The notes beneath the pieces are model-generated. The model did not search any database and was not told the origin of the DNA. It was given only the letters and a program-made list of their open reading frames with translations. Positions 2,869 through 59,711 of a stretch of 64,000 nucleotides of DNA are shown here, piece after piece; position 1 is the first letter of the stretch, and each line of letters opens with the position of its first letter. This stretch comes from Chloranthus sessilifolius (Eukaryota > Streptophyta > Magnoliopsida > Chloranthales > Chloranthaceae), in the NCBI GenBank assembly GCA_021018995.1, contig CM037587.1, positions 69,273,604-69,337,603 of the forward strand. Direction: 5' to 3'. The position numbers and the translations under genes are program-made.

Positions 2869-3130
2869 CTTTTCGAAAAGAAGAATGCACTACAGAATGC
2901 TATTCGTAAAGGTCCCCAATCTTTGCGAAAAGGTCCCCAAGCTCTGCGAAAAGGTTTCAAATCTTTGCGAATAGATCTCCAGAAGTTACAGTTCTTTTCG
3001 AAAAGGTCTCCAATTTTTGCGAATAGATCTCTAGAAGTTACAGTTCTTTTCGAAAAGGTCTCCAATCTGTGCGAAAAGAGCTTCAGAAGTCACAGTACCT
3101 TGCGAAAAGTTCTCCAAACTGTGCGAAATG
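2869..3130 (+). repeat. LTR A array of CTTTTCGAAAAG-type motifs
   Basis: By eye, about eleven copies of a 12-base imperfect palindrome: CTTTTCGAAAAG in full at 2869 and again at about 2994 and 3046. TTTGCGAAAAGG and TTTGCGAATAG variants lie between, spaced 20-30 bases apart. The array ends about 350 bases upstream of the TATA box. Open frames crossing it are artefacts of the repeat. Confidence 0.8.
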
Positions 3131-5827: not shown

Positions 5828-8196
5828 TGTAACATCCCTAAAAATTATCGTTTTTAATAGTATCCTAGGGATACATGCCCGACTGGTCATAAAAAGGGTC
5901 AAGTGAAAGTCAACTTGATGATTTAGGTTAAATTAGGTTTGATGTGAGTGCGCTCATGTGCGTGGTGTTAGATCTTGTTACGAGGTCACATACACCTGTT
6001 ATGGGTGTGTATGCTTTGTTTCGAAGGGTTGAATTGGGTTAAAAGATTTAAAAGATAAGAGAAGTTATTTCTCTTTGGTTTGGTAGGTGGTTAGGGATTT
6101 ATGAAGAGAGAGAGAGAGAGAAAGGAGGAGGGAGTAAATGCTAGAGGTTTTGTGTGAAATTGCAGATTGAGGCCATACTTGAGCTATTAATCATGACGGT
6201 GACACGTGGGGATTCAAGGAATAGAAGCTAGGAACCATAGCTTGTGGAGTCAAGCCATTGAATCAACCATACTTAGAATTGATGTAAGATTTTTGCAAAT
6301 TATGAATGGGGTGATATTGTGATTATCTTGTTGAGTTATTAAGGAATTTAAGAGATAGAAAAAGGAAAAAATTTTAGAGAGCAAAGCTAGAGGAATTGCC
6401 CGAAGAGGGCTAAGTTCTATCAAAAATCGATTAATCGATTTTGATAAAAAGCAAATTTGGACATTGAAGCACAAAATCGATTAATCGAATTAAATTTCGA
6501 TTAATCGATTTTTGGTTTCGAATAATCGATTTGAAATTGATTACTCGATTGGGTACTCCCAGTTGGCTGGAAAATGAGGAGTCTGGGAAAACTGATTAAT
6601 TGATTTTGGGATCGATTAATTGATTTTAGAATTTCGATTAATCGATTTGGGATTGATTAATCGTTTTGGAAATTCGATTAATCGATATTGGGATAGATTA
6701 ATCGATTTTGATAGTTTTGGGTGGATTCTGTTTTGTACCTTAGGGTTCTGGGAGGGCCTTGTGCCTTCTTCTGTGCATCATTATTGATTATTTGTGTATG
6801 ACGTGACGTACTGTAGGTTGAGTACTTTGATTTTAAGCATGGGGAGCTACCTTGGACCTTGATGCTTAGAGTTGAAGCACGTGAGGTAGGGAATATTCTA
6901 AACTTGTACACTTGATTACAAAAGCATGTATGTAGTGATATTTTAACTATGCAAACTTGTTAAAGCATAGTTAATGGGTTGTGTTTTAAAATGCTAAGAT
7001 AAGTATGTGAAAGTAAGGTGTGTGTGCGTACACGAAAAATGAGAAAATCAATGAGTGTAAGAATTTTGACATCCCAGGGATGTATTTGTGAATAGGGAAT
7101 CTAAGTGATGCATTTGAATGTGAGACATCCCAGGGATGTAAAGTTAATGTGAATGGGCTTTGAATTATTAATATTTAGCACAATTATATGGTGAATAATT
7201 ATATATAATTGCACAATTGATTTAAGGTTTAGAGAATACCCCACCGACACGGCGGTATGCCCGTGACTGACTCGGCAGGATATCTGTGACCGGTTCGATG
7301 GCCAATTCGCACATCAGTAAGACATCCCAGGCATGTATATGAGTTATGTGCCTGTCACCTATGATAAAGGAACTTAGACTATGTTACATGAAAAATAGTC
7401 TTATTGGATGACGATGGAGGGTATTCCATCGGGGCTCGATGCTATATTGCTCGGATATTATTTAAGTTAATTGATTTAAGTCATGAGACCAGCTCAGTTG
7501 TAAAATGAGAACCAGTTGTGCAAGAGATGGCATGTGTAGTGTAGCAATTGCATTTCGTTCATTATTTTAGTATCTCAAACTGTTTTTGAGTTATTTTATA
7601 TTGATGAAATCATACTTCAAATTATGTCATGAAATGTATTTGAGTAAGATGGATATACATGTTCAGATATTTTCCGTATTGAGCTAGGATGTAGCTCACC
7701 CTTTTTGACTATACGTCGTAGGTTCCGAGATAGGAGCTGCTTCTGGTGACGTCAATCTCGAGGACTCGGATTATGTTCCAGGGGAGGATTCTGAGCCTCC
7801 TCCTGAGAAGTTCTTTTAGAAGACCCACTGTGCAGTTTGATAGTTATTTTGAGAGAGATATTTACGACTTGGTATGTCCAACCTGTTTTGTAGGGATAAT
7901 ATAATTATGGAGAAATTCTTTTGTCGAACCATCTGAAGTGACCATTGATACGTCACTGATAGTTCGGGTTGGTTCTTTTGCCCATGCAGTGGCATGGGAT
8001 TGGAACTATCTTTTGGGTTATATATTTTGGCTTTAAATTATAGAATTGGAGATTTAGTTTCGTACTTGCTATTTTGTACATGCTTTAATTAGGGTTGTGG
8101 GGATATACCAAGTGTTTCGCGTGTATCATTGGGGCACGACCTCAAGGGTCATTTTGATGGCACGGTTTTCGGGGTGTTAAAATCTAAGCTGTCATA
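5828..8196 (+). repeat. Solo LTR S1 of a Tekay-like element
   Basis: It begins TGTAACATCCC and ends AGCTGTCATA, the same termini as the LTRs of element M, and clear similarity to M continues inside (the 'ctcgatgctatattgctcgg' and 'taggatgtagctcaccc' blocks). No primer site or coding region follows. E's LTR resumes directly, so this is a solo LTR left by LTR-LTR recombination. Flanks AAAAT (5823-5827) and GAAAT (8197-8201) fit a 5-bp target duplication with one change. A (GA)n run lies at 6103-6120 and a palindrome array at 6426-6710. Confidence 0.85.
6426..6710 (+). repeat. S1 array of ATCGATTAATCGAT motifs
   Basis: By eye, eleven copies of the self-complementary 14-mer ATCGATTAATCGAT (with flanking A/T) and one-base variants, for example at 6426, 6476, 6497, 6611, 6634, 6673 and 6693. 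A non-repeat spacer sits at about 6550-6590. The same array with the same spacer is in both LTRs of M. Confidence 0.85.
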
Positions 8197-11307: not shown

Positions 11308-11445
11308 TGTAACAACCCCAGATTTTCGGAACCGTACAAGCCATATGCCACGCACGTGTATGTGTGGTTCACAAGGAAACCTGGGTCAACATATACACAC
11401 GGTGTGTATATGTGAAGTAACATATTATATTTTTCCCTTCCTTTC

Positions 11446-11455
11446 ACTATATAAG
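11446..11455 (+). promoter_or_regulatory. TATA box of 5' LTR T
   Basis: ACTATATAAG in a GA-rich context, 138 bases from the LTR start; identical in the 3' LTR at 21151-21160. If this is the true promoter, the motif array is transcribed. A second TATA-like run (12177-12196) lies just after the array, so the start site is uncertain. Confidence 0.55.
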
Positions 11456-11830
11456 TGAAAGTGGAGAGAAGTCTCTCCACTACGTAACATAATTTTAACC
11501 TAAATAGAGAGGAGGAAAATAGAGAAAGAGAAAAGAGAGTCTTGTAGAGAAGAAAGGCTAAGGCCTTGTTGGAGTGTAAACCGGTGGAAGACCTGGAGAG
11601 AAGGTCGGACCAGAAATGTAGAGAACTCTTCGAAGTAACAGGGATTCGAATGCTAGATCGAGCCATTTCAAGATCCGCCGATTTAGGTAAGAGATAATGC
11701 GTGATAAGTGCTTAGGTATGTCTTAATGATAACCTGCAATGTATTAGGCAATGGCCGATTAATCATATTTAAGATTTAAGGAAATAGGATAGTTTTCTTG
11801 AAGAATCACGGAGTGAAGGTTTTCGCTCCT

Positions 11831-12147
11831 CGCTCGAGCGATCTAAACGTCTCGCTCGAGCGAGGACAAAATATATACCTGAGAATAGTGCGTTCTGGGC
11901 TCGCTCAAGCGAGACCCATATTGAAAGAATAGGCTCGCTCGAGCGAGGTAATCTGACACCTCGTCTTAACCGCTCGAGCGAGGATAAGAGGACGCTCGAG
12001 CGAGGCTGGGCAACCGCTCGAACGAGGTAATCTGACACCTCATTTTAACCGCTCGAGCGAGGATAAGAGGACGCTCGAGCGAGGTTGGGCAACCGCTCGA
12101 GCGAGGTTAAGAGGTCGCTCGAGCGAGGCTAAGTAACCGCTCGAGCG
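11831..12147 (+). repeat. 5' LTR T palindrome array (CGCTCGAGCG)
   Basis: Twelve copies of the 10-base palindrome CGCTCGAGCG, usually followed by AGG: starts at 11831, 11853, 11902 (variant), 11936, 11971, 11993, 12015 (variant), 12050, 12072, 12094, 12116 and 12138. Spacing of 21-22 bases is common. A 79-base tandem duplication (about 11948-12105) accounts for part of the array. The variants are single G-to-A changes at CpG. Confidence 0.95.
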
Positions 12148-13607
12148 AGGCCCCAAAAACTAAAAATTTAATTTCTTTTATATATATAAATATACCTCAT
12201 ATGAACTATGCGCTCTAGGAGTGCTAGTGACCACTGGTGACCATTCTAAGGCATGTCCTTTCGCATGAAATGTAGATTTACGTGAGATCAGTACGTGTCA
12301 TCATTACGTGAAGGGACCACTGGGTTTTTCCTTGAGGTAGGGAACCTTATCGAAACATGTACATTGTTCAATCTCACATATGTGTAGTACAGATTTAATT
12401 GCTAAACTAAGTATCTCATCATGTCACGTAAATAGAGGGTGCGTGTGTAGACTTCAGAAAATAAAGCCAGAGGTCCCAAGGGGACGCAAGAACTACAAGA
12501 TGAATACCTATATGATATCCTGTGTGGGTGCAGATGAGAAGCAGTGGGGAAAAGAAAGTAAGGTGATAAGGCCTAATATATTAAAAATTAGCACAATCAC
12601 GGTGAATAACTACATGTAAAGCACACTTGATATTTTTGTTATTTAAGGTTTGTTTAGAATACCCCATCGACGTGGCGGGATACCCACAACTGACTCGGCA
12701 GGATATCCGTGATCGGTACGGCGGTTAATCCAGATATGATAGCACATCCTGTGGATGTAGATTTAGAGAGCCCGCTACCTAGGGAGAAAGGGGCTTAAGA
12801 TTCCTGTGGAATACAAAATTGATAACTGTCTAGTTAGACGACGATGGTGGGTATTCCATCGGGGCTCGATGCTATATTGCTCGGGGACTATTTAAGTTAA
12901 AGAGTTAAGTGATTAGGCCGAATTCACAACTAAACGAGTAAGATGAGAAAGAACAAAACCATGCAAAGTAAGTAGTTATATTCGTCTTTCCCTTCAGTTA
13001 TTTCGATTATCCTTCCAGATTGTAACAACAGATAAACTGTATTTTTCTTTTACTGCATAACATATATGTCAGAATTAATCTATATGTTCTTTACGTTTCT
13101 CTACTGAGCTAGGATGTAGCTCACCCCTTAGACTATATGTTGCAGGTGCAACACTCGCAGCAACACAGGCTTCGAGAGACGTTGGTCCAATAGGTTCGAA
13201 TTTCGCGGACGGAGAAGAGTTAGAACCTCCTCCTGAGGAATTCTTTTAGAAGTTCTTTACGTTTAGATGTGGTGAGTAGAGAGTACTCGTGGCTTGGCAT
13301 GTCAAGTCCTTTCTTTTAAATGTAATTAAATACTATACTTTCCTTTTGACGAACCATCGGGGGTGATATGATTGTCACCAATGGTTCGGGACAGTTCCTT
13401 TGCTCATGAATTGGCATGAGACCAGAACTGTCTGTTGGTTGCTAGACTTTGATGAAACACAGGGACTTAGTTAGTTCAAAGCTTTGGTATTTTAAATTGT
13501 TGGCTTTTACTTGTTAATTGATGTTCCGCATAGATATAAGGTGCATGACCTCGAGGGTCGTGCTGATGGCACGGATTTTGGAGTGATAAAATTCGGGCTA
13601 TCACAGT

Positions 13608-13619
13608 TGGTATCAAAGC
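13608..13619 (+). promoter_or_regulatory. Primer-binding site of T (tRNA-Met type)
   Basis: TGGTATCAAAGC two bases after the LTR end. The usual plant initiator-Met site is TGGTATCAGAGC, as seen in M at 59712-59723; one base differs here. Confidence 0.85.
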
Positions 13620-13705
13620 TTTTCTTCTAGAAATTCTGACAATTATTCTTTTGTCAGAGCATAGGGACTTCTGCTGACGAAAGTTAGTTTCATATGCTGA
13701 TCGTG

Positions 13706-15068
13706 ATGTCTTCGGGAAGGAGAGGACGACCAAGGGGTGGTCATGATAGGAACTTACGCAGTAGAGGTGAGTTCATCTCGCCAACGAACAAGGTACCGTT
13801 GGGAGAAAGAGAAATTCTCGAGAGTAGTAGTCAAGGGAACAAAGAACAGACCGAAAATCATTATCAAGACTGTCAGGGTCAAAATAAGAGAGAACAAGAT
13901 AGGATCAGGGAGAGAAATGAAGAGAGAGAGGAGCGTCAGAGGATGATGCACACTATGGAAACCATGGCGGCTGCCATGGCAGCATCCTTTTCGGCTCAAA
14001 ATATCGTAATCGATGTCGACCACCTACATCTCGATGGTGCCAACACTAGCAAGCCAAAGATTTACAGTAATTGGGAGGATGAGACCTCCTAACTTTTCAG
14101 GGCAAGCAGACACTATGGCTGCTAAAAATTGGCTAAGTGAGATGGAAAAGCTTTTCAACGTACTCACTTGCACGGAAGATGAGAGCGTCCGTTGGGCAGC
14201 GTACAAGTTAGATGGGGAGGCTGGACTTTGGTGGAAGTCTGTGTCGCGAACTAGGGCTCAGGAGACCCCAAATGTGCCATGGACATGGAATGAATTCGTG
14301 GAAGAATTCAATAAACAGTATTTCCCCGAAGTGGTGAGAAATCAGATGGAAGTACAGTTTTTACAACTCTAACAGAGAAACATGACAGTAAGGGAATACA
14401 GAGTGGAGTTCATGAGACTTGCTTGTTTCGCTTCCGACTATGTGGTTACAGAAGCGATGAAAACAAAGAGGTTTCAACAGGGTTTGAGGCCAGATATTCG
14501 AGGAGGAGTTGCTCCATTTCAGCTGAAAACATACGGAGAGGTTATGAGTAAGGCGCTAGTAGTGGAAGAAGAGAACAACAACCGCTACCGTCAAAGGGAA
14601 CAACAAGGAAGAACAAACGTGGATCAGAACAGAACTGGGAACTACGAGCCAATAAACAAAAAGCCGAGATTCATAGTATAAAATCAGAAACAACCGTTTC
14701 AAGCAGGATATGGGAGACCGACACAACAGAGCACATATCAAAGGTTTCCATTTCCGGCATCAGGGAGACCGATGAGATATGAGAATCCTGCCATTTCTAC
14801 TGGAGCTGCGATAACACAAGGCTTCTCACGAGCTGCATCTTCAACACCAAGGGATACTTGTGCCAAGTGTGGCAAGTCCCACAAAACGGCTGATTGCAGA
14901 CAAGGGATGCGAGGTTGTTTTAAATGTGGCAAGATGGGCCACATGATTAAGGACTGAGGCAAATAATTTTGATTTCACGACCGATGCAAGCAAGGAAAAC
15001 GGTCATGCAAGGGAGAGCCTATGCAGTCACTGCTCAGGAAGCAGGGAACATGCAAGACGTCATTCAAG
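13706..15068 (+). pseudogene. gag: gag of T
   Basis: Start chosen at the ATG of MSSGRRGRPRG because M's gag begins with the same motif. After a basic, charged N-terminus the frame shifts near 14010-14050. The capsid core (Retrotrans_gag family) reads through WLSEMEKLF, LDGEAGLWW and FVEEFNKQYFP, with TAA stops at 14370 and 14679. Two zinc knuckles follow: CAKCGKSHKTADC and CFKCGKMGHMIKD. The last ends in TGA at 14955-14957, exactly where the final Cys of the CCHC knuckle should be. A short indel follows, then RAYAVTAQEAG leads to the putative 5' splice site at 15069. Confidence 0.85.
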
Positions 15069-15237
15069 GTGAGAAATATTTATTTATTTATTTATTTTTA
15101 GAAATTTCATTTCCTTAGATAGAGAAGGTGCATTCAATAGAAATAGTGTAGTTTCTTTTGCTAAACACTAAATTTATTCGTGAACTAGGGATGTGAAAGG
15201 ATGTGTAAATTTTTGTATGTATGTATGTATACTATAG
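15069..15237 (+). other. Putative intron between gag and protease of T
   Basis: CAAG|GTGAGAA at 15069 and TATAG|GTAC ending at 15237. The interior is AT-rich with several stops. Joining the flanks gives VIQ-G-TLTMYEK with the Gly codon split G|GT, which fits the continuous gag-PR sequence expected of Tekay elements. M has the same sites in the same place (58225-58069). Prediction only. Confidence 0.55.
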
Positions 15238-18200
15238 GTACTTTAACCATGTATGAGAAAGGATATGTCTTTATATATGACGCTAGAGTGTTGATAGACC
15301 CAGGGTCTACCCACTCATTCGTCACCCCACGATTTGCCAAGAGGATGAAGATTGTTCCAGAGGTGTTGGACTTCGTCCTATCTGTGTCTATTCCGACTGG
15401 AGAATTAATAAACGCGGAGTTAGCTTGCAAATCTATCATTGTAGCAGTTCGAGACCTAGAGGTGCATGAATTGGAAGCGAAATTGATATTGCTGGACATG
15501 CAGGGGTTTGATGTGATCCTTGGCAACACAAGGCAAATGAATGCAAGAACAAGGTCGTCATTTTCAGACCCAACACAAGAAGATCATTTCGGTTTCAAGG
15601 AGTGAGGTCGTCATCTATGCCACTGATCTCAACAGTAAAGGCCGAGAAAATGATCAGAAAGGGCTGCGACGGTTACTTGGCATTCTTGAAGGCTGATAAG
15701 GAAGAGAAGAATGTCATTTCGGAAATCGCAGTGGTGCGAGAGTTTCAAGATGTGTTCCCAGACGAATTGCCAGGGTTACCTCCAGAGAGGGAAGTGGAAT
15801 TTGCTATCAACTTACCGCCAGGAACGGAAGCTGTCTCAAAGGCACCATACCGAATGGCTCCTACTGAGTTGAAGGAATTGAAGGAACAATTATAAGAACT
15901 TATGGATAAAGGGTTTGTAAGACCAAGTGTGTCTCCTTGGGGAGCACCTGTCTTATTTGTAAAGAAGAAAGATGGGTCAATGCATTTATGCATTGACTAT
16001 CGACAGCTAAACAAAGTAACTGTGAAGAACCGATACCCGTTGCCGAGAATTGATGATTTGTTCGATCAACTGCAAGGAGCAAGGTATTTCTCTAAGATCG
16101 ACCTCAGGTCGGGATACCATCAATTGAGAGTTAGGGCCGAAGATATTCAGAAAACTGCATTCAGAACACGGTATGGACACTATGAATTTTTAGTGATGCC
16201 GTTTGGATTGACAAACGCACCGGCGTCGTTCATGGAGTTAATAAATCGGGTGTTTAAACCACATCTGGATTCTTGGGTCGTAGTGTTTGTCGACGACATT
16301 TTGATATATTCCAAGTCAGAAGAAGAACATGAGAAGCATCTAAGACTCGCTCTACAAACTTTGCGTCAGCACAAACTTTATGCCAAACTCAACAAATGCG
16401 AGTTTTGGTTAGAAGAGGTTAGCTTTTTAGGACATGTCGTCTCCAAGCATGGTGTCACAAGGATCCGTCCCAAAATCAAGCGAGTGAATTGGGAACAACC
16501 TAAGACAAAGACCGATATCCGTAGTTTCCTTGGATGCAAAAGTTACTATCGACGCTTTTGTTGAGGGTTTTCAAAATAGCGGGACCTCTCACACATAAGG
16601 AAGGATGTGAGATTCGAATGGAGTGAGGCGTGCGAGAAGAGTTTTCAAGAACTCAAAATGAGACTCACTTCAGCCCCAGTATTAGCAATTCCTTCAGGCA
16701 GTGGGTGATTCGCAGTGTACAGTGATGCTTCGTACAATGGTTTGGGTTGCGTGCTCAACCAACACAAGAAAGTGATAGCTTATGGGTCAAGACAGTTGAA
16801 AGAACATGAGAAGAATTATCCGACACATGACCTAGAGCTAGCAGCAGTCATATTTGCGTTGAAGATTTGGCGACACTATTTATACGGTGAGACCTTCAAA
16901 ATTTTCACCGATCATAAGAGCCTCAGATACTTGTTCACACAGAAGGAACTAAATATGAGACAACGCAGATGGATGGAGTTTCTTAAGGACTATGACTGTT
17001 CCATACAGTATCATCCAGGTAAGGCTAACGTAGTAGCCGATGCCCTAAGTCGAAAGGGTCCAGCTCTGTTGGCCAGTTTGGTTCTGGGTATGCATAGATG
17101 GAAGTTGTTTGAAGATCTTTCGATGTATGATGCAAATATTGAGCCACGCGCTCTGAGGCCTTTTGGCTAACATATCAGTGAGACCAATAATATTCGAGCA
17201 CATCCATGAGCTACAGATGAGGGACCCAGCGTTAATGAAGAGTCGTCAAGACGTAACTGAGGGCATCAGATCAGATTTCTCAATCAAGGAGGATGGTTCC
17301 TTGTTGTTCAAGGGTCGACTCTGTATTCCGGACAATGTTGAGCTAAAGCGAACTATCCTTGACGAGTCACACAAATCAAGTTACGCGATACACCCAGGCA
17401 GCACAAAAATGTACCAAGATCTGAAAAGGAATTATTGGTGGAGAGGTTTAAAACAAGATGTAGCAGAATACGTTTCACGATGTTTGACGTGTCAACAAGT
17501 GAAGATTGACCATAGACACCCTGCAGGATTGTTGCAACCTCTACCAATACCAGAATGGAAATGGGAATCAATATCTATGGATTTCATCGTTGGACTACCG
17601 TGTACGACAAAGAGATATAATGCCATCTGGGTAATCGTGGACCGACTGACCAAATCAGCACACTTCCTACCTTACAACATGATGTATACAGCAGGAAAGC
17701 TAGCGGAACTCTATATGAAGGAAATAGTACGCCTACACGGAATTCCAAGTAGCATTGTCTCCGACCGAGATCCGTTATATACATCAAAATTCTGGAAGAA
17801 GTTTCAGGAAGGGATGGGGACACGGCTAGATTTCAGTTCAGCTTTCCATCCACAATCAGACTGACAAACAGAACGGGTAAATCAAGTAATAGAAGACATG
17901 CTCAGAGCTTGTATGTTGGAAATGCAAGAATCGTGGGATCAATATTTACCGTTAATCGAATTTGCATATAATAACAGTTTCCAAACAAGCATCGGAATGG
18001 CACCATATGAAGCATTATACGGAAGGCGGTGTAAATCGCCCATCAATTGGGAGGAAACCGGAGAAAAATTTATTTTAGGGCCCGAGCTGCTGAAAGAAAA
18101 TACCACAGTCGTTCGAATCATTAGGGAGAAACTTAAGTCGGCTCAAAGCAGACAGAAAAGCTACGCTGATATCAAGCGGGCCAGCGTCGATTATAAGGTG

Positions 18201-18625
18201 GGTGAACACGTGCTTGTCAAGGTGTCACCTATGAAGGGAGTGATGAGATTCGAAAAGAGGGGAAAATTGAGTCCACGATATCTGGGACCATTCAAAGTTT
18301 GGGCCGAGTTGGCGAAGTTGTATATCGCATTGGCTTACCTCCGGTGTTCGATCGAGTACATAACGTTTTCCACGTTTCTATGCTCAGGAAATATGTGAAT
18401 GATCCTTCCCACATTTTGGAGGGTCAATCACTAGAGATGTGTGAAGACATGAGTATGATAGAAGAGCCGGCAGAGGTACTGGATAGAAAGGACCAAGTGC
18501 TATGCACCAAAATCATTCCCTTAGTACTTGTTCGATGGAAGAATCATCCGACCGAAGAAGGAACATGGGAACGGGAGGCTGATGTCAAAGAACAATACCC
18601 CAAGTTGTTTGAGAGGGTCAATTAG
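15238..18625 (+). pseudogene. pol: pol of T (protease, RT, RNase H, integrase, chromodomain)
   Basis: Protease: VLIDPGSTHSF near 15285. A short deletion at about 15525 removes the segment after VILG. RT (15902-16564) keeps [11 protein letters not shown] and the catalytic FVDDILIY (Asp codons 16292-16297). RNase H (16715-17100) has VYSDAS, ELAAVIF and FTDHKSL. Integrase (17163-18300) has the zinc-binding HX..HPG..CLTCQQ segment, then SMDFIVGLP and IVSDRDP of the catalytic core. The chromodomain (about 18470-18620) has LVLVRWKNHPTEEGTWE. Damage: TAA at 15893, TGA within SD*QTERVNQ near 17862, and frameshifts near 16560, 17150 and 18295. Confidence 0.95.
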
Positions 18626-18845
18626 AATTGTTTGTAAATGGTGATGTCACACAACACTTTGACTTCAACTATAAATTCCTATATTTTTCTAGCTTAAATT
18701 GTTTGTTACGGCGGCCTCCTCATGCGTTTCCGATCACCGTGTCCTTAAGTGATGTTAGGAGGTGATTTGGATCACAATGTTCCAGAACGTAAGAACGGAG
18801 GAAGACAAGATACGAGCCTATGGGCACTGAATCATATGATGGGCT
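18626..18845 (+). other. Spacer between pol and ORF3 array of T
   Basis: A little over 200 non-coding bases after the pol stop. It includes a GGCGGCCTCCTCATGCG block and no recognised signal. Confidence 0.5.
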
Positions 18846-19058
18846 CGCTCGAGCGAAACCTCATACTCGCTCGAGCGCAAGCTACATAAAATAACAAAAT
18901 AGACAAGTTTGGGATCGCTAGAGCAAGGAATAGTGACCGCTCGAGCGAGGTGTATTGGTCGCTCGAGCGAGGATTCCAAGCCGCTCGAGCGAGGCCAAAA
19001 TTATATACCATTTTCAGTTCTGTGATCGCTCGAGCGATAACTAACGACCGCTCGAGCG
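18846..19058 (+). repeat. Second palindrome array of T, upstream of ORF3
   Basis: Eight copies of the same CGCTCGAGCG palindrome as in the LTRs (18846, 18868, 18916 variant, 18938, 18960, 18982, 19027, 19049), again often followed by AGG and again at 22-base spacing. Spacers resemble the LTR array only loosely (for example a CAAAATTATATACC-like piece). It ends just before a TATA-like run and 215 bases before the ORF3 start. Confidence 0.95.
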
Positions 19059-19064
19059 AGGACA

Positions 19065-19076
19065 TACTATATATAG
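19065..19076 (+). promoter_or_regulatory. TATA-like box before ORF3 of T
   Basis: TACTATATATAG directly after the array and about 200 bases before the ORF3 ATG. It resembles the LTR box ACTATATAAG and suggests, without proof, a separate ORF3 transcript. Confidence 0.5.
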
Positions 19077-19272
19077 TGGACAGATTGCTAAAATGCCCAC
19101 TTCTTCTTCACGCGAGGAGCTTGGTGTCGAGCGAAGGTCTAGGGTTTTCACTTTCAAGCATTTTCCGTCCGATTCAAGCCGGATTCGAAAAAATCCGAAC
19201 CGTCCAAACCATTTTCCTAGGTAAAATCTACCTTCTCCACACTCCTTTACGTTTTTAAACTCTATCACTCTA

Positions 19273-20571
19273 ATGGCTTCTTCAAGCCCTAATCCCCAAC
19301 CGAGGAAGCGAATGGCGACCCGATCGCCATCATCGCGAAACAAGGCACCACAACAGCAACCACCTCCACCACCGGCACCCATCCTGATCCAACTTGATGA
19401 TTGGTGGGGCACGAAAGAAATGGAACCCGAGTGGGAAATTCATCCCTCATGCTTTATTGATCCGACATCCACGAAATGGATGTCAGATTTCCTGACAAAC
19501 CACCACCTCCGACCTTTGCTTACACCATTTGGACCTCGATACTATCCGAGATTAGTCCGATTATTTTATCAGACCCTCAAGACCAATGTAAATGAAGACA
19601 CCATCCTCGTCACAATTGACGGGAAGGATTTGTCCTTTGGTGGCGGCGATGTATCCGCTGTCATGAACTGCCCTCTCACCTACACCCCGACACTAAACAC
19701 ACAACCTCCACTTGTTGAGAATGTCGGGTTTCAGAAGATCATTGATGATATTACTGACAGCGCGTCCGCATCGGGTCAATCCATCACCCGATCCCAGTTA
19801 CCACCACACATGTGGTTTTTGGACATCATTTTCAAGAAAAATTTACACCCTACCGGTCATGACCAAGACCGTCGTGACACCTTTTTACGGGCCTTGCACT
19901 CCGCTTTCCACAATAGGTGGTTTTGTGCCCCAATGGTCGTCATAAAAGGCATGGTGCATGTCTATAGGAGAAATGTTAGGGGCGTTATTCCTCCGCCGAT
20001 AAACTGCCTCCCATACGCACGTCTTATCTCCCGACTCCTCGATACGCGTAATGGGAAGGATGGATTCAAGATCAACACCAATGAGTTATCGCTTACCGAT
20101 AACGTTGTACCCTACATAGCCCAGGACCTCAGCCGAAACCTAAAGGGGATTCAAAACAGTGTGAACAAGAAAAGAGATCGTCAGGCCGCAAGGCAAGCTT
20201 CACAGCCACCATCGACTGGACCGGCTACTCCCTCCACTGTGCCTCCACCACATCTGCATACCACCGACTCCAGTATGTTAGGGGAGATTCTCTAACAGGT
20301 ACGGGAGACCCGATTACATCAGCGGTTCCAGGAGGCGCTTCTCATTGACCTCATGGGTCAAGCTTATCCGCAGACGTACCGACAGCGAGTTGCGGCGATG
20401 AGGGATGCCATTTTTGGGACATCTAGTTTGGCCCAGGTGGCTAGGACCACTACAGAGAGTGCCACCCATGCCAGTGAGACCGTTGGTGAGGGTGAGGGAG
20501 ACGGTGCGGAGAGTGACGAAGAATGGGACACAGGCGATGACGACGATGAGTACGAGGAGGAAGATGACTAG
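19273..20571 (+). CDS. ORF3 of T: putative plant transposon protein-like
   Basis: A 432-codon frame broken once by TAA at 20293-20295 (CAA expected, a C-to-T change). The N-terminus is Ser/Pro-rich and basic (RKRMATR, possible nuclear signal). A conserved domain spans residues 35-290: LDDWW, then YYPRLVRLFYQTLK near residue 100, VTIDGKDLSF, MWFLDIIFKKNL, HDQDRRDTFLRAL and LPYARLISRLL. It matches ORF3 of M and D segment by segment, and resembles the family annotated in Pfam as putative plant transposon protein (Transposase_32). The C-terminus is very acidic (DTGDDDDEYEEEDD). It has no RT, integrase or envelope motifs and no membrane segment. Function unknown. It sits after pol on the same strand with its own array and TATA-like box. 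Confidence 0.8.
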
Positions 20572-20999
20572 GTCGCTGTGGATATACTTTTTTTTTGTTA
20601 ATATTATGAAACTAAAAATTTTGTTGGTATGGTGAATGCTTGATACTGCTGTGACATGATTGTCACAAATTATAATTAATGGGCACTAAATTTCTGTTAT
20701 ATATATATGCATGTTGTGATTAAATGATTCTGATAGAATGATCGTAGAACATGACAAAAGTCTTCATGCGTGGTGTGGTATGAACAACTTTTCAACTCTC
20801 AAAATGATCGGTTGTCAGGTTCTAAACTCATCAGGCCGTTTCAGGTGGTTACAAACACTTGTAATCTTTAAATAGATCTTTCGGGTCACGGGACCATATG
20901 ACTAACTGATAAATGAGTATGAGTTAATCAAGGACACAACCATAAAATATGTAGTTTTTGCTTTGGGTCATGATCGATTTTCGAGGACGAAAATCTTAT
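20572..20999 (+). other. 3' non-coding region of T
   Basis: AT-rich sequence between ORF3 and the polypurine tract with no ORF or repeat recognised. The final block 'gaggacgaaaatcttataagtggggg' has counterparts in M and is typical of the end of Tekay internal regions. Confidence 0.6.
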
Positions 21000-21012
21000 A
21001 AGTGGGGGTGAA
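21000..21012 (+). promoter_or_regulatory. Polypurine tract of T
   Basis: AAGTGGGGGTGAA immediately before the 3' LTR TGTAACAACC. Confidence 0.8.
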
Positions 21013-23291
21013 TGTAACAACCCCAGATTTTTGGAACCGTACAAGCCATATGCCACGCACGTGTATGTGTGGTTCACAAGGAAACCTGGGTCAACATATA
21101 CACACGGTGTGTATATGTGAAGTAACATATTATATTTCTCCCTTCCTTTCACTATATAAGTGAAAGTGGAGAGAAGTCTCTCCACTACGTAACATAATTT
21201 TAACCTAAATAGAGAGGAGGAAAATAGAGAAAGAGAAAAGAGACTCTTGTAGAGAAGAAAGGCTAAGGCCTTGTTGGAATGTAAACCGGTGGAAGACCTA
21301 GAGAGAAGGTCGGACCAGAAACGTAGAGAACTCTTCGAAGTAACAGGGATTCAAACGCTAGATCGAGCCATTTCGAGATCCACCGATTTAGGTAAGAGAT
21401 AATGCGTGATAAGTGCTTAGGTATGTCTTAATGATAACCTGCAATGTATCGGGCAATGGCCGATTAATCATATTTAAGATTTAAGGAAATAGGATAGTTT
21501 TCTTGAAGAATCACAGAGTGAAGGTTTCCGCTCCTCGCTCGAGCGATCTAAACGTCTCGCTCGAGCGAGGACAGAATATATACCTGAGAATAGTGCATTC
21601 TGGGCTCGCTCGAGCGAGACCCATATTGAAAGAATAGGCTCGCTCGAGCGAGGATAAGAGGACGCTCGAGCGAGGCTGGGAAACCGCTCGAGCGAGATAA
21701 TCTGACACCTCATTTTAACCGCTCGAGCGGGGATAAGAGGACGCTCAAGCGAGGCTGGGCAACCGCTCGAGCGAGGTTAAGAGGTCGCTCGAGCGAGGCT
21801 AAGTAACCGCTCGAGCGAGGCCCCAAAAACTAAAAATTTAATTTCTTTTATATATATAAATATACCTCATATGAACTATGCGCTCTAGGAGTGCTAGTGA
21901 CCACTGGTGACCATTCTAAGGCATGTCCTTTCGCATGAAATGTAGATTTACGTGAGATCAGTACGTGTCATCATTACGTGAAGGGACCACTGGGTTTTGC
22001 CTTGACGTAGGGAACCTTATCGAAACATGTACATTGTTCAATTTCGCATATGTGTAGTACAGATTTGATTGCTAAACTAAGTATCTCATCATGTCACGTA
22101 AATAGAGTGTGCGTGTGTAGACTTCAGAAAATGAAGCCAGAGGTCCCAAGGGGACGCAAGAACTACAAGATGAATACCTATACGATACGATATATCAGTA
22201 GCATCCTGTGTATGAGAAGCAGTGGGGAAAAGAAAGTAAGGTGATAAGGCCTAATATATTAAAAATTAGCACAATCACGGTGAATAACTACATGTAAAGC
22301 ACACTTAATATTTTTGTTATTTAAGGTTTGTTTAGAATACCCCACCGACGTGGCGGGATACCCACGACTGACTCGGTAGGATATCCGTGACCGGTACGGC
22401 GGTTATTCCGTATACAGTAGCACATCCCAGGGATGTAGATTTAACAATAGACCCCGCCACCTAGGAGAAAGGGGCTTGGGGCAGTATTCCCAGGGAATAC
22501 AAAATTGATAACTGTCTAGTTAGACGACGATGGTGGGTATTCCATCGGGGCTCGATGCTATATTGCTCGGGGACTATTTAAGTTAAAGAGTTAAGTGATT
22601 AGGCCGAATTCACAACTAAACGAGTAAGATGAGAAAGAACAAAACCATGCAAAGTAAGTAGTTGTATTCATCTTTCCCTTCAGTTATTTCGATTGTCCTT
22701 CCAGATCGTAACAACAGATAAACTGTATTTTTCTTTTACTGCACAGCATATATGTCAGAATTAATCTATATGTTCTTTATGTTTCTCTACTGAGCTAGGA
22801 TGTAGCTCACCCCTTAGACTATACGTCGCAGGTGCAACACTTGCGGCAACACAGGCTTCGAGAGACGTTGGTCCAAAAGGTTCGGATTTCGCGGACGGAG
22901 AAGAGTTAGAACCTCCTCGTGAGGAATTCTTTTAGAAGTTCTTTACGTTTAGAAGTGGTGAGTAGAGAGAACTCGTGGCTTGGCATGTCAAGTCCTTTCT
23001 TTTAAATGTAATTAAATACTATACTTTCCTTTTGATGAACCATCGGGGGTGATATGATTGTCACCAATGGTTCGGGACAGTTCCTTTGCTCATGAATTGG
23101 CATGAGACCGGAACTGTCTGTTGGTTGCTAGACTTTGATGAAACACGGGGACTTAGTTAGTTCAAAGCTTTGGTATTTTGAATTATTAGCTTTTACTTGT
23201 TAATTGATGTTCCGCATAGATATAAGGTGCATGACCTCGAGGGTCGTGTTGATGGCATGGATTTCGGAGCGACGAAATTCGGGCTGTCACA
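21013..23291 (+). repeat. 3' LTR of T
   Basis: 2279 bases, nearly collinear with the 5' LTR (TGTAACAACC...GGCTGTCACA). It carries eleven array copies (21536-21817) rather than twelve and lacks part of the 79-base duplication. It is followed by the second GCTAA. Confidence 0.95.
21536..21817 (+). repeat. 3' LTR T palindrome array (CGCTCGAGCG)
   Basis: Copies start at 21536, 21558, 21606, 21641, 21663, 21685, 21720, 21742 (variant), 21764, 21786 and 21808. A third array of the same motif within one element. Confidence 0.95.
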
Positions 23292-24615: not shown

Positions 24616-24882
24616 TCCTCTCGAGAGAATTTGTACATGATTTGGCTGCCCCTCGAGAGGATCTTAAACTTCAAAGCATCCTCTCGGGATAGTTGTTCTT
24701 GAGGCAATACCAGGCTTCAATAGGCTCCAGTGCTTAACAGTAGCTGCTCGATCTCTGCTCGAGAAAATAGTTGGAGCCTCGATAGGATTATGCAGTTAAA
24801 TAAGCTGCTCGAGATCTTCTCGAGAGAAGGAATTCTGTAGCATTGTCAAAGCTCGATTGCCTGAGCTTATAACGCTCTCGTG
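24616..24882 (+). repeat. CTCGAG-type array upstream of ORF3 of D
   Basis: About nine CTCGAG-centred sites, several extended to CTCTCGAGAG: 24618-24627, 24652, 24681 (variant), 24747, 24758, 24777, 24808, 24818, 24850 and 24874. It lies about 350 bases before ORF3. The LTR of D carries CTCGAGCA-type sites (30136-30554). Less regular than in T. Confidence 0.65.
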
Positions 24883-25228: not shown

Positions 25229-27860
25229 ATGACTGACAATCCCGATTTTGAGGAAACCCTAATCACCTTGCTTAGCTCTGCCCAAAGCCAGCCACTTTCA
25301 CCAACCAGGAAATCTAAGAGGATAGCCTCATCCTCATCTCCTGCAGATCCTATGGCCCAACCACCACCCAAGAAATCCAAAGTCAGCACAGTACCCATAA
25401 ACCAGAGAAGAAGGGTGAGGGGGCTGCAAAGAAACAAAAGAAGGGCAAGGGAGCTGCCCCTGAGTTTGATCCCTTCACTACCCTAAATGATTTTGTGGAA
25501 AATCTTAGCCTGGTACTAGTGACCATTTATGATATGTCATTTTTCACTAAGGAAGAGTGGGAAAAGGAAGCCATCCTGTTTTTGACAAAGGCCTCCATGG
25601 ATTCTCTGTTGAAGCCTCTGGAAGAAATAGTTTACCCCAGATTAGTGAGGTTATGGTACCAGAACATTAGGGTGAAGGAGTCTGGAGGAGGACCAGATGG
25701 GAAGGACCATGTGTTACTAGTCATGATGAATGATTTTGATGAATTGTGGACACAACTGATATAGCATAGGTATTAGAGATTCCTGCTACATATGATCCAT
25801 CTTACAGCCTGAGACCCCCAATCAGTGCATCATTTAAGGATATTGCCCAACACTTAGCTCAGGAGAAGAAAGCATCAAGAGATTCTGTGATGAGGAGTGA
25901 CATCAGTACAAACCTGTTATTCATGGACATTATGTTGAGGAAGAATGTGTTTGTGGCAGGTCATTAGCAGGAAAGGAGGCACCCAATTGTGGATGCACTG
26001 TACTCCTTCTCCAAGGGGCATTTCTTTAATGCTGCCAAGCTGATTTTTGAGGGGATGGAGGATATACATGGAAAATTAAAGAAGAGGCAGACAGTGCAAC
26101 GTTTACCCTACAGCAGGCTAATCACAACCCTGCTAAAAAAAATAGGTTATGTGTGGAAAGTAGGAGAGCCCGCTGCTGAGTTGTTACCAACTGAATTTGG
26201 AAGAAGGTAGTGGAAAATCAGCATGACATTTATGAATAAGAAGAAAAAGAAGGAAACTGAAGTAGCCCCTCCAAGGCAAACTTCTACTACCACATCAGCA
26301 GCAACCTCTGCAGCCTTGTCAAAGCAGCCATTGTCCACCCTTCCTTCCATTCCATCATCATCACCAACACCTCCTACCCTCCATTATATACCTACATCAG
26401 TACCTTCACCACCCCCACCACCCTCTAGCATTACTTCCATTCCTGTATCAGCTCCTCCTACCATAGTTTTCCCCTACAACCTTCCTACACCTACCATCCA
26501 CAAAAAATACAAAAAGAAAACCAACCACCACACCACAGAACCCAGCCTATCCACTACCATACCCCCACCAATCCAAAGCCCAACACCAGACCCACCATCC
26601 CCTTTTACCTATGGTGACAGTGAGCCAATGGCTACTGCCATTGAACCATCTAACCCCATTGAGCCCAGTGACCCAATTCCCTCTCCTACCCATTCCCCTC
26701 CATTTCCACCTAACCAAGACCAATTCCATATGACCCATGAGCATTTCACAACAGAGGGCTTCTCGGTCCTAATGGACTCCATTGTGGAGGACATTAGGCA
26801 TGAGTATACCCCTCTACCTGAATCCCCACAACCCTACCATTTTAACCATGCCCCTACCTCACCATTCCAACCAATCCCTCCCACCCAACCTGTAACCCCA
26901 GCCATACCTGACCCTCTAACCTAAATCATTTCCCTCCTAACCTCTCTCCAATCCCAAATCCATACCAACACAGAAAACCAAGCCTCCATCCAAACAAGCT
27001 TTAACTCCATCGAATCCATCCTTCAAACTTTTATCCCACCATCCACACCTACCCCAATCCCTACCCCTCCTCCATGGAAACAGCCTTCTACATCTGTGAC
27101 AACAGTTAATGCTAACACCCAAACTAACTTTGACTCTGAAGAGATGGCTATAGTCCCCCTTTCTACATCCTCAACCTTCACCCAAACTGAAACCACTGAG
27201 AAGGAGTTGATCCCTTCCCAAGATCTAATCCCTGCCCAGCCATCCATGTCTGCCTAGCTATCCATGTATGCCCTAGCCTTCTATCCTGCTACTGAAATTG
27301 CTCCTGTCTCCATATCTGCTCATGACCTAATTGAGCCATTGTACCAGCTAATTCCACCCACCCTCAATGTTCACATGGATGCCAACTCATATCTTGCAAA
27401 TGATGTGTGTTAGCTGGTTGCCTTTGTCAGAAATAGTGTCCAGCAGAGATGTGAGGATCAGCTAGAACTGATGAAGACAGCTAATTGGAAAAGTTTGGAA
27501 GCAGTCATACTAGAGCATCAGAAGGAGCTGAGGACCATGCAAGAAAGATTGGACAATGTTGTAACTGTGTATCAACTGTATGAGAGGAGGGCTAACCAAT
27601 ATGAAAGGCTATATGAATCCTTATCAGCCACACTTTTGTCACTGGGCATTAAAGATATACAGCCTTCAGCATAAGGCAAAGGAGTTAAAATACAAGAACC
27701 TACACTTTAGAAGAGCAGTACCAAACTAAGGAAATCAGCAGCCTCAAGGACTAAAGCTAGTGCTGCCAAGGCAGAAAATGTTACGAAGGGTAAGGAGAAG
27801 ACTGCAGGAGACCCCATTGAACTAGATTCTGATTCAGACCACCTTCAGGAGTTGCTATAG
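25229..27860 (+). pseudogene. ORF3 of D: putative plant transposon protein-like, long form
   Basis: About 877 codons with frameshifts near 25410 and 25770 and several TAG/TGA stops. The N-terminus is basic (RKSKRIAS, PPPKKSKV). The conserved domain includes FFTKEEWEKEAILF, VYPRLVRLWYQNI, NLLFMDIMLRKNV, FFNAAKLIFEGM and LPYSRLITTLLKK, aligned with ORF3 of T and M. A long Pro/Ser/Thr-rich linker follows (26223-26924). A probable coiled coil (27471-27674; EAVILEHQKELRTMQERLD) and an acidic end (DSDSDHLQELL) complete it. Athila elements are known to carry an extra ORF here. Function unknown. Confidence 0.75.
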
Positions 27861-30135: not shown

Positions 30136-30554
30136 CTCGAGTAGCTATCAAGAAATTCAACACCTTCAGAAATCAAAGCTCGAGCAGCTCTCGAGCAGAC
30201 TTGAGCAGACAAAAGCTTCAGAAGATACCTCTGAAGCAGTTGTCGAGCACATCAATGCTGCGCATTCCATCCACTCGAGCACACTTGAGTAGTTCAAAAC
30301 TCTACTGCAGGAACCACTCGAGCACATCAATGCTTCAACAACATCATGTCGAGCAACTCTTGAGCACTTGAAGACTACTGCATTATATCCACTCGAGCAA
30401 CCACTTAAGCAGTTCAATGCCATCAGAGCAATCCTGTCGAGAAGTTGTCAAGCTGCCTTCAGAAGCATTTCAACCACTCGAGCAGATCTAACTTCAGACC
30501 TACAGCCACTCAAGATCTACTCAAGAATATATTCTGAAGCCTCCAACCACTCGA
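30136..30554 (+). repeat. LTR D array of CTCGAG(CA) sites
   Basis: About eight perfect CTCGAG hexamers (30136, 30179, 30190, 30273, 30317, 30392, 30477, 30549), mostly as ACTCGAGCA. GTCGAGCA and CTTGAGCA variants are interspersed. All lie upstream of the TATA box. Confidence 0.7.
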
Positions 30555-30742
30555 GGCTCAGGTCCCAGCATATTTTGACGGACCTCAAGGGTATTTTAGA
30601 ACTTCCACAACACATGGGACACTTGCTTTTTCGAACTGTCAAGGGCAATACTTGGCTGAAAATGAGCCACATTAGCAGAATCCTAACTAATTTAATTCTC
30701 CTCTTCTCTAATTGGCCAAGGCAAGAAGTCACTTTATGGATT

Positions 30743-44447: not shown

Positions 44448-44822
44448 CTTTCCCAGTCCACTTAGATGTGTATCAACCAATCGAGGTTCTCGATCAGATT
44501 GACCAATGGTAGTCGAGCACGGGGATCGGATCCGTGATTACGCTCGCCAATCGTAATTCCTCGACCTGGTTCAACCAATCAGGTGAAAATGGCATCAATT
44601 CTGTTATGCATTTTGAAAGTTTGTTAGAGATTCTAGAAGTTCCCGCCAAGTTATTCCCTCTCTAGGTGCTCACGTGGGGTGGAATATTCCTTTGCTTCAT
44701 GCTTAGAACCCTCTGGAATGTCCCTAGGTTTTAAAACGCATTGGGACGTGTGCAATAGATTACTGAATTGCCCTTGTTAAAGCTGCGAATCTCCAGAATA
44801 CTTTTTTGCAGAGCTTAGGGGT

Positions 44823-45062
44823 CTTTTCGCAAAGTGCTGTGACTTTTGAAGCTCTTTTCGCAGTGTTTAATCTTCTCTTCGAATTGTGTTTTCTCCTTTT
44901 CGCAAAGTTCAATCTTCTCTTCGAATTGTGTTTTCTCCTTTTCGCAAAGTTCAATCTTCTCTTCGAAGAGTTCAGATGCTCTTCGAAAGCTAAGCCTGGA
45001 GTTTTAGTCCTTTTCGTAGAGTTCCAGGTTCTTTACGAAAAGTGCAGGTTCTTTGCGAAAAG
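44823..45062 (-). repeat. LTR B array of CTTTTCGxAAAG / CTCTTCGAAGAG motifs
   Basis: Eleven copies by eye, at about 44823, 44863, 44875, 44897, 44919, 44938, 44959, 44980, 45009, 45031 and 45051. A 41-base tandem repeat carries the middle copies. The same motif class and copy number as LTR A, but the individual repeats are arranged differently. Confidence 0.8.
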
Positions 45063-45346
45063 AACTCTGTAGTGCATTTCTCTGTTCGAATTGTTCCCTG
45101 CTTCTCTTACAGGTCTTTGCCTCTTCGATTTAGACCTTTCAACAGCTGATGAGGTTGTTCCTTTACTTCCTTTCTTTGAATTGACATGGATTGTCATCTT
45201 TTTGGCACTTTTAAGCTGCTTTTATGGTTAAGCCTGTCTTTATTGTTAGCTGCAACATAGGCACTTAAAACACTTATTTAGTTCTCTCAAAGGTCTATCA
45301 AGACTTAAGTTTAGGGGTGAAAAATGGTATTTTTCACTTGTCAACA

Positions 45347-52076: not shown

Positions 52077-52089
52077 TTCTCCCCACCTT
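52077..52089 (-). promoter_or_regulatory. Polypurine tract of M
   Basis: Minus strand AAGGTGGGGAGAA next to the 3' LTR. Confidence 0.8.
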
Positions 52090-52484
52090 GAGAATTTTCG
52101 TCCTCGAAAGTAAACTCAAGGGTTTCCCTTCATGGAAGACCCATACACATAAGCAGACAACAACTAATACAACATCATCAGACACGTACAGCATAAACTT
52201 AACGACATGTGCGCGCGATTAACAAGAAACAAAATTTAAGATAACAAGGATTTGAATTTCATAATGGTCTCAAAAAGATACATTTCCAAGGTCTCAACCA
52301 TTTACATTTTTCCAAAATGTTTTCAAAATGCATAAAATGATCACAACAAGTGGCATCCATGCCATATAGTTCAGTACATCAACTTTCAAATAATTACAAC
52401 GCAAAAAGAAACATCACAAGTTAGCAGTCACACAGTGTCGTCCCCTAGCTAATCCTCCTCATCATGCTCATGTGTACCAAAACC
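52090..52484 (-). other. 3' non-coding region of M
   Basis: Between ORF3 and the polypurine tract. An acidic tail (GTHEHDEED, stop near 52450) can be read in a shifted frame at its upstream end, like the acidic end of T's ORF3. Otherwise nothing is recognised. Confidence 0.5.
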
Positions 52485-53879
52485 TAATGCATCAGGAGCC
52501 CATGTCTGCGCCGCCATAACGCGCTAATGGTAATCGCTGGGATACATGAATTGCATGGTTTGATGGAGCAGCACCTCATGAAAATTCATGCGATGGTATG
52601 TCCGAGTGTTGCTCTCCTCCATAGGTCTGTGGTGCTCCAGCATCTGGTGGTTGTTCTCAGCCACCAGGGCGAGAATATCATCAATAGTGCTCAGTATAGG
52701 GGCCTGAGATGCTCGTTTCGTATGAGACCGCATACGTGCAATAGGAGTGGACTACGTAGGGGCAAGAGGTAGTACTAAGGGCTACTCTGTAGGCAGTACT
52801 GGGTTAGGAGGCTGCTCCCCCGCTGCTTGGTCCTATGGTGGTACAAAAGGCTGCTCCCCTGCTACTTGGTCCTGCTATGGTGGTGGGGCATCACCAGCTT
52901 GGGCAGGTGATGGGCCCTCTGGTGGAAGCACCTTCTTCAGAAGGTTGTAGCTGTGGCTCCATGAAGCGATAGAATAACGCTTCACATGATTGGTAGCCCT
53001 TAGCTTGGTTGAAGGAATTACATACTCTATGGCGGCAGAGTAGCACTCAAGCATGCTCGAAATAAGCCGAGCATATGGCATACGCTCCTTCGGCCTTAAG
53101 GGTCCTTTCATCATTTTTCCCTTAATATAAATCATACCCTCCCTAACTAATTTGGAAGCGTCGAACCAACGGCCGCAGTATGCCGCATATAATGCCTGTT
53201 GGACTAATTCCACCCTCTCGGTTTCATGGCGCATTGGATAGTGGTTGCACTTGATTATTGAATCAAGCATCCATAAATGAGGGCGTATGTCAACCCTCTG
53301 TATGGACTTTTCTGATCATTTGTTTCCCCTTGTCATCTCAGTTCTAATCTCCTCAAAATTTATGGGTTGTGGGAAAGGGGGTAAAAGATTAGTCTCAGGC
53401 ATGTAGACCGAAAAATATTCTCATGATTCATGAATGTGGTGTAGGGTAAACAGGTACTTACGACCATCAATTTCGGTCGTAATGGTGCCGGTCTCCCTAC
53501 CCTCCTTTATGTTTTGATAAAACAACCTAATCAACCTAGGGTAATAATAGTCATGCAATGGTTTCAAAATGTTATCGAGGACCGCATTGACGAGGTATTT
53601 TTGGGCCCATTTTGTCTCACCCTCAACCTCCGGGTCCTCAAAAAGAGCTTGATCTATAATGTATTCATTTTCAAAATCTTTCGCAGTCCACCATTCATTA
53701 GGTTGGGGTAAATGGGTGGGCTGAGGTGGTGGTGGTGACGATTCACGTGGTGATGCGTTTGTCGAATAGGATGATGATGATGAAGGTGAAGGTGACGGTG
53801 GTAGTGGCGCGGCATTCTTACACTTTTCGGGAAGCTTAGAAGTTGCTTGCTTCGAAGCTAGCCGAGTCTTAGGCGGCAT
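52485..53879 (-). pseudogene. ORF3 of M: putative plant transposon protein-like
   Basis: One frame of about 465 codons from the ATG at 53879, with at least seven stops. Four successive TAGs (about 52740-52870) each stand where CAG is likely. The N-terminus is basic and Ser-rich (MPPKTRLASKQ). The conserved domain has EWWTAKDF, YYYPRLIRLFYQNIK, EIDGRKYLF, LWMLDSIIKCN, GRWFDASKLVREGM and MPYARLISSML, aligning block by block with ORF3 of T. The C-terminal part is Pro/Gln-rich and then helical (IDDILALVAENNHQMLEHH). Same position after pol and array as in T. Confidence 0.8.
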
Positions 53880-54129: not shown

Positions 54130-54135
54130 ATAGGC

Positions 54136-59623: not shown

Positions 59624-59711
59624 CATGCTCTGCACATGAAACCACAATTTTATTAACAGAAGGTCCTTTACTCTGATAAAATCAAGACTTATCAAAATTT
59701 TAAAAGAAACT

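Follow-up and report, generated by a model that had tools for sequence, protein, structure and literature searches.

Matching palindrome arrays in the long terminal repeats and before an extra gene of Ty3/gypsy retrotransposons in Chloranthus sessilifolius

Palindrome Arrays of Element T

The window that we analyzed, the whole of a 64,000-nucleotide (64-kb) stretch of contig CM037587.1 of Chloranthus sessilifolius, holds a complete long terminal repeat (LTR) element, here called T, which lies on the forward strand inside another element, W, and carries an extra open reading frame (ORF), ORF3, between its pol region and its 3′ LTR. The two LTRs, at 11308..13605 (TGTAAC...TCACA) and 21013..23291, were located by self-BLAST, their ends being set by eye; they are 93.8% identical to each other and are flanked by what reads by eye as a target-site duplication, GCTAA, at 11303-11307 and 23292-23296. 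The pol region (15902..18622), whose frame is interrupted, matches the Pfam models of a reverse transcriptase, an RNase H, an integrase, a Tf2-1-like SH3 domain, and a chromodomain; the last of these (PF00385) scores 28.4 bits against a cut-off of 25.1, which places T among the chromoviruses of the Ty3/gypsy superfamily. ORF3 itself (19273..20295, 340 codons) resembles PF20167 at 35 bits and is homologous to the ORF3s of W and of a second element in the window, U.

Counted with at most one mismatch over the whole window and compared with 100 dinucleotide shuffles, the palindromic 10-mer CGCTCGAGCG occurs 30 times: 12 times in the 5′ LTR (10 exact; 11831..12147), 7 times upstream of ORF3 (all exact; 18846..19058), and 11 times in the 3′ LTR (10 exact; 21536..21817). 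There are zero matches in the window outside these three arrays, and the shuffled windows contained 0.20 matches on average and two at most. A first-pass annotation had reported 12, 8, and 11 copies and no run of the motif elsewhere; the counts agree except that the eighth internal copy, at 18916, is CGCTAGAGCA, with two mismatches to CGCTCGAGCG. A spacing of 22 bp is the commonest in both the LTR array and the internal array (7 of 11 intervals in the 5′ LTR and 5 of 7 before ORF3). Immediately 3′ of the internal array comes a TATA-like word, TACTATATATAG (19064..19075), also read as CTATATATAG.

When the LTR and internal arrays are compared, the 10-mer is 95.8% identical and the next three bases (AGG) 67%, while the rest of the spacer is 29% identical, against 28.5% expected from composition, so that the spacers do differ as largely as had been claimed. 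With the motif and its spacing kept and the spacers unrelated, the pattern argues for selection on the sites and not for recent copying, and for T we rejected a recent origin of the internal array from that of the LTR because the spacers are at composition level. One could still imagine arrays with no shared factor behind them, arising by functionless tandem growth and by copying from the LTR to the internal position through gene conversion or template switching. Tandem growth has left its marks, as the T LTR array is partly built from duplications of 79 bp and 44 bp and the number of CGCTCGAGCG copies differs between the two LTRs, but the persistence of the 10-mer amid differing spacers fits such a process poorly, and two further observations, given below, point in the same direction.

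A Related Element with a Palindrome of Its Own

The second element, U, is a relative of T on the minus strand (49669..62173) and, like T, has a pol and LTRs; its LTRs (5′, 59726-62173; 3′, 49669-52076; self-BLAST, with ends set by eye) are 89% identical. Here, the repeated words are CGATTAATCG and AATCGATT, with nine matches at no more than one mismatch in the 5′ LTR array (61281..61548) and nine in the 3′ LTR array (51196..51454). An array upstream of ORF3 (54139..54400) has six matches to CGATTAATCG and more to AATCGATT; a TATA-like word, CCTATAAGTA, stands just after it at 54132, and ORF3 follows in two open pieces of the same frame, 53424..53879 (152 codons) and 52878-53315. The spacings in the U arrays are mostly 19-23 bp. 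An LTR on the plus strand (5828..8196), S, was found by self-BLAST to be ~72% identical to the U LTRs and has a CGATTAATCG array at 6428-6704; U and S together hold 33 of the 36 CGATTAATCG-type matches of the window, and the counts, like those of CGCTCGAGCG, are well in excess of chance. By eye, S (5823-8201 with its flanks) looks like a solo LTR, its near-matching flanks being AAAAT and GAAAT.

To express the similarity of arrays, we used the cosine of enriched 8-mers (k-mer counts), with seven stretches from T, U, and W as controls. Within an element, the LTR and pre-ORF3 arrays agree closely (0.90-0.92 in T and 0.87-0.89 in U); between T and U, the cosine is 0.00, and no control stretch exceeds 0.07 against any array. 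The proteins of the two elements are considerably closer in pol (pieces mostly 58-84% identical) than in ORF3 (34%) or gag (48%). In the LTR, the initial 1.26 kb of T, in which the array lies, cannot be aligned with U, the remainder being 68% identical. Set against the better-kept pol, the low identity of ORF3 and the unalignable part of the LTR suggest that the ORF3 module diverged in step with the array-bearing half of the LTR. Between S and the U 5′ LTR, the agreement is 0.895 in the array motif, 0.84 in the array spacer, and 0.73 and 0.72 in the flanks, and LTR arrays better kept than their surroundings are not what functionless growth would leave behind.

The LTRs of T and U show two more features in common, both noticed by eye: splice-donor-like words upstream of the array (11680-11700 in T; 61711-61720, minus strand, in U) and, downstream of it, a short, coding-like, conserved stretch that closes with EELE(P/S)PPE(E/D)FF and a stop (13140-13250 in T; 60090-60210, minus strand, in U). 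The LTR array may lie in a leader intron.

Copies of T and U across the Genome

Copies of both families were surveyed in the source genome (2.17 Gb). For T, we took the best 30 of 119 scored ORF3 candidates, the window copy being one of them, and nine copies at 78-86% ORF3 identity; for U, the window copy and 16 of the other 149 listed, on the plus strand and chosen across the identity range (70-86%). At least four CGCTCGAGCG sites precede ORF3 in 28 of the 30 T copies, the lowest count being two, and at least four lie in the 1.5 kb downstream in 27; a TATA-like word follows the last site within ~50 bp in 24. No copy lacking the pre-ORF3 array was thus seen among the best 30 of 119. In most of the 30, the last site is ~220-235 bp upstream of the ORF3 start, a constancy that again does not suit functionless growth, which we consider a very improbable explanation for the arrays as a whole. 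Both arrays are retained in each of the nine diverged copies (with at least four and at least five sites), and a tenth, L034, has five sites, counted on the pre-ORF3 side only. Across the 29 other T copies, the agreement is 0.953 in motif columns and 0.905 in spacers, and CpG positions agree at 0.949 within the motif and 0.915 outside it.

The retention of sites also bears on the idea that the arrays are the target of a host silencing factor, the divergence of families then reflecting escape and not an element-encoded binder. CpG-rich palindromic LTR arrays could serve as such a target, and for maize Sireviruses such a role has been argued. An escaping element, however, should lose or break its sites, and most of the sampled copies keep several in both places; we hold this explanation to be very unlikely.

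Among the U-type copies, 8-13 AATCGATT-type sites precede ORF3 in all 17, and in none of the 17 was the T motif found there. The LTR pieces could be scored in 12, the other five having fewer than three typed sites in the LTR piece, and in these 12 the share of the variant ATCAATC in place of ATTAATC is correlated between the LTR and the pre-ORF3 array (Spearman 0.83, permutation P = 0.001, n = 12, uncorrected for relatedness). All six U relatives checked have a TATA-like word 223-250 bp before ORF3. In T, 7 of the 30 pre-ORF3 arrays contain a minor variant, CTCGCGCGAG, as do 3 of the 30 downstream pieces, and the three copies that have it downstream also have it before ORF3. Independent drift of the LTR and internal motifs, against which the first-pass annotation had set its proposal, was not seen: T and U each share their own palindrome between the two places and the U variant changes in both, the minor T variant being less consistent.

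In 50 kb of neighboring DNA, no ORF3 relative was found at E 1e-4; that DNA has three five-copy word arrays, ACTGCGCGAG (L038, 266-651), CTTCGCTAGG (L038, 9191-9571), and AACCTTAGGA (L040, 295-384). Elsewhere, three U-type ORF3 copies lie in the same orientation ~2.1 kb apart (G000:C10:57408364-57412976), possibly a local tandem amplification.

Element W, Family V, and Helical Phasing

Element W, which T interrupts, has an ORF3 region of several open pieces (25229..26207, plus strand) homologous to the T ORF3 (E 1.8e-20). From a resemblance of its protein words judged by eye, we take W to be Athila-like. An array of CTCGAG/CTCTCGAGAG lies before ORF3 (24620..24857, plus strand) and one of CTCGAG in the LTR (30136..30555, plus strand), where the spacings are near multiples of 10.7 bp; exact CTCGAG occurs 13 times in these two stretches and 16 times elsewhere in the window outside the T arrays. 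A TATA-like box was looked for after the pre-ORF3 array of W and, unlike in T and U, none was found. A further family, V, is represented by two LTRs with the same type of array, CTTTTCGAAAAG/CTTTGCGAAAAG, at 2869..3130 (plus strand; spacings mostly 21 and 31 bp) and 44789..45121 (minus strand; mostly 20-21 and 31 bp). The V spacings are close to two and three helical turns. No ORF3 region of V was seen within the window. The Sirevirus-type feature of a family-specific, multicopy palindrome in the LTR is therefore present in T, U, S, W, and V; an array before the extra gene that shares the LTR palindrome is clear in T and U and weak in W.

The phasing of the W LTR array was matched by none of 5,000 random placements. 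For the pre-ORF3 array of W, P was 0.0016 with TCGA centers and 0.14 with a looser motif; V gave P = 0.037 from three distinct spacings, and U (P = 0.045) and the pooled W arrays (P = 0.057) were borderline. A universal helical phase was dropped as an explanation, with T failing (P = 0.89) and U and the pooled W arrays borderline. The near-helical spacings of V and the W LTR nevertheless suit a role as DNA better than one as RNA, in which the palindromes would form hairpins in the long transcript, serving in packaging, in translation control, or as a source of small RNAs. The arrays do fold better than shuffles (z of −7.0, −7.65, −5.9, and −2.6), although this is unavoidable for any array of a single palindrome; furthermore, in T and U a TATA-like box comes right after the pre-ORF3 array, which would hence be outside an ORF3 mRNA starting there. 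Taken together, we find a role in RNA improbable.

Two more repeats were noticed in the window. At 48950-49244, GGCCCA/TGGGCC recurs about every 24 bp; this stretch lies upstream of a reading frame rich in proline (47565-48521, minus strand) and could be a coding or a promoter repeat, and at 35708-36008, five copies of TTAAGATCTA (at most one mismatch) lie within 300 bp.

Other Genes of the PF20167 Family

PF20167 (Transposase_32) has a curated cut-off of 45 bits. Above it, the family has at least 150 matches in this genome and none in 14 control genomes, and we inspected five of the 150 loci, L083-L087. The ORFs of L083, L084, L085, and L087 score 54.8-67.3 bits, whereas a piece in L086 (36.9 bits) and one in W (16.4 bits) stay below the cut-off; a distant relationship to the T ORF3 was detected for the ORF of L083 (E 7e-5 and 4e-4; 21% identity). 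With up to two mismatches, the word CGGACGTCCG occurs before the gene at 9 sites in L083, 9 in L084, and 10 in L085, and in the stretch ~1 kb after the gene at two, four (with three further on), and two sites, respectively. A clear match of the stretch before the gene with the LTR stretch is confined to L083 (0.54) and L084 (0.57), and as these two share one motif, it is not private among them. Polypurine tracts of the form AGGGGGAG follow the gene in L084 (three), L085 (two), and L087 (three), and none follow it in L083 or L086. Having several such tracts is a hallmark of Sireviruses (PMC2829016), so L084, L085, and L087 are probably Sireviruses; the genes of L083 and L087 being 81-84% identical, L083 probably is one as well.

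In L087, TGATCGATCA occurs eight times, once with a mismatch, at intervals of 19-45 bp (17-196), 1.2 kb upstream of the PF20167 gene; these copies may be the array of another element. The viral contigs searched contained no relatives of ORF3 or of the integrase. Pattern matches in two of them, paired short direct repeats containing CGCTCGAGCG or CGATTAATCG in L001 (67% G+C; 12805-12836) and L002 (47%; 3321-3349), look unrelated and, on base composition and local sequence, were set aside.

Relation to Known Systems

The arrangement has a precedent to which the first-pass annotation made no reference, just as it left the arrays that U, W, and V carry unmentioned. In Sireviruses, which belong to Ty1/copia, family-specific palindromes occur in many copies in the LTR and before ENV-like genes; 77 of 79 linker copies are before ENV, four elements without ENV have none, and a TATA box follows the LTR island by 37 bp on average (PMC2829016). 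The palindromes of T and U are likewise family specific, multicopy, and placed both in the LTR and before the extra gene. They belong to different elements, however, T having a chromodomain, U being its relative, and W being taken as Athila-like, and the centers of the T, U, and W palindromes are of the TCGA or TTAA type. The same paper calls the feature specific to Sireviruses, with a CGG-CCG core and Tnd-1 excepted. This core is absent from the motifs of T, U, W, and V and present in the CGGACGTCCG of L083-L085, a word contained in a listed Sirevirus motif, GTCGGACGTCCGAC (motif list in PMC2829016). The window has no CGGACGTCCG at up to one mismatch, no AGGGGGAG on the plus strand, and one on the minus strand, at 58040, which is in the sense direction for U but within its body and far from its 3′ LTR, unlike the multiple tracts of Sireviruses. 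The layout known from Ty1/copia Sireviruses is thus extended here to Ty3/gypsy, and PF20167 is likely to be its common partner across the two. Our literature search for PF20167 or Transposase_32 did not lead to PMC2829016.

Sirevirus motifs mainly matched the sites of stress factors (PMC2829016), and one may ask whether host transcription factors bind the arrays in general, each family having captured the site of a different factor, with the LTR and the internal promoter answering one signal. That ORF3 has no recognizable DNA-binding domain fits this as well. Different palindromes within one window and a gradual co-change in U would, though, require many factors or repeated switching, and the lack of linker copies in the Sirevirus elements without ENV is awkward for any factor supplied by the host; on balance, we think a host factor unlikely. 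No element-encoded binder is proposed in the part of PMC2829016 available to us.

Outside the LTR elements, a parallel is that of the VANDALs, which are Mutator-like. In the Arabidopsis VANDAL21/VANC21 system, a short motif is dense in noncoding parts and its arrays grow by tandem duplication; the motifs vary by family and evolve with the encoded protein (VANC21, VANC6), and binding of the motif YAGTATTAY by VANC21 and loss of methylation have been demonstrated (PMC5735166). Similarly, the motif differs between T and U, and its variant co-changes in both arrays across the 12 U copies. Unlike these DNA transposons, T and U carry LTRs and pol, YAGTATTAY is not palindromic, and the binding and methylation effects established for VANC21 would be only presumptive for ORF3. 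An activator that is encoded by the element and acts on both the LTR and an internal promoter is known as Tas in foamy viruses (PMC8670036 and PMC4929722); the logic is that of the circuit proposed below, but foamy viruses are animal retroviruses and no homology is claimed. As for the gene, sunflower Athila elements have an extra sense ORF between pol and the 3′ LTR, with similarity to PF20167 and a predicted nuclear location, while the extra ORF of sunflower Tekay lies 5′ and matched no known domain; Retand elements have family-specific tandem repeats in the same region (PMC11728184, PMC7264820, PMC11963269). The available parts of these three papers describe no matching of palindromes between LTR and pre-ORF region, and the titles and abstract openings of the open-licence literature contained nothing closer on such a motif system in Athila or chromoviruses, on PF20167, or on Sirevirus ENV as a DNA binder.

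Discussion

The arrays of T and U are paired, match within an element, differ between elements, and have been retained in many of the sampled copies, and in U a variant has changed in both places. Palindromes that differ between families and yet agree between the LTR and the ORF3 promoter, and that co-change in U, point to a factor encoded by the element and not to a common host factor, and ORF3, which follows the array, is the candidate for it. In the scheme that we propose, the ORF3 of T and U would have its own promoter, consisting of the palindrome array, the TATA-like box, and a leader of ~200-250 bp, and, with the same palindrome repeated in the LTR of the family, both sites would share one operator. 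ORF3 would encode a nuclear protein that binds the palindrome (probably as a dimer, the site having dyad symmetry) and that activates, or shields from silencing, its own promoter and the LTR. The binder, its nuclear place, its dimer state, and the direction of its effect are our reading of sequence patterns, and we see about an even chance that ORF3 is such an element-private regulator and the arrays its private operators.

Several observations weigh against this reading. The PF20167 match of the T ORF3 is below the curated cut-off, Pfam and related searches recognized no DNA-binding domain in ORF3, and AlphaFold gave no usable model of it (mean predicted local distance difference test score, pLDDT, of 40.5; prediction from six pieces). 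ORF3 is not alone in diverging fast, as gag is also strongly different in T and U (48%). The LTR and pre-ORF3 arrays of W agree weakly (cosine of 0.27, against 0.12-0.16 with T), and the spacings of T are unphased apart from the common 22 bp, the LTRs of its family being able to use 23-24 bp. The minor variant CTCGCGCGAG is often found in only one of the two arrays and is inconsistent among the nine diverged T copies. Of the inspected PF20167 loci, L087 has a CGGACGTCCG-type motif after its gene and not before it, in L085 the score between the LTR piece and the pre-gene array is only 0.07, and in L086 the gene is preceded by CTCGCGAG, the stretch taken as the LTR having other words. The folding of the arrays belongs here as well. 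Finally, in the two LTRs of T, the motif columns (0.973) are barely better kept than the flanks (0.955), which makes that comparison neutral.

The idea of ORF3 as a VANC-like factor acting on the motif had been put forward in the first-pass annotation. It stands in so far as the motif pattern fits it; the protein side gave no DNA-binding domain, no fold, and no solved structure that was convincingly related (best E 0.078). We regard the interpretation as partly supported, strengthened but unproved. A wider proposal, which we put at somewhat less than even, is that PF20167-like genes may form a large plant family of transposon-encoded, palindrome-specific DNA-binding regulators. The gene and its cognate palindrome would be a module found in Ty1/copia Sireviruses, Ty3/gypsy chromoviruses, and Athila-like elements, each with a private code that changes in concert, such that an element could activate or protect itself without waking its neighbors.

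These readings bear on what the "envelope-like" extra genes of plant retrotransposons do. Should PF20167-like proteins indeed read palindromes, many genes now called env-like or transposase-like would become self-regulators, and plant retrotransposons would possess a VANC-like or Tas-like system common to superfamilies. The private palindromes would then predict which elements hosts can control separately.

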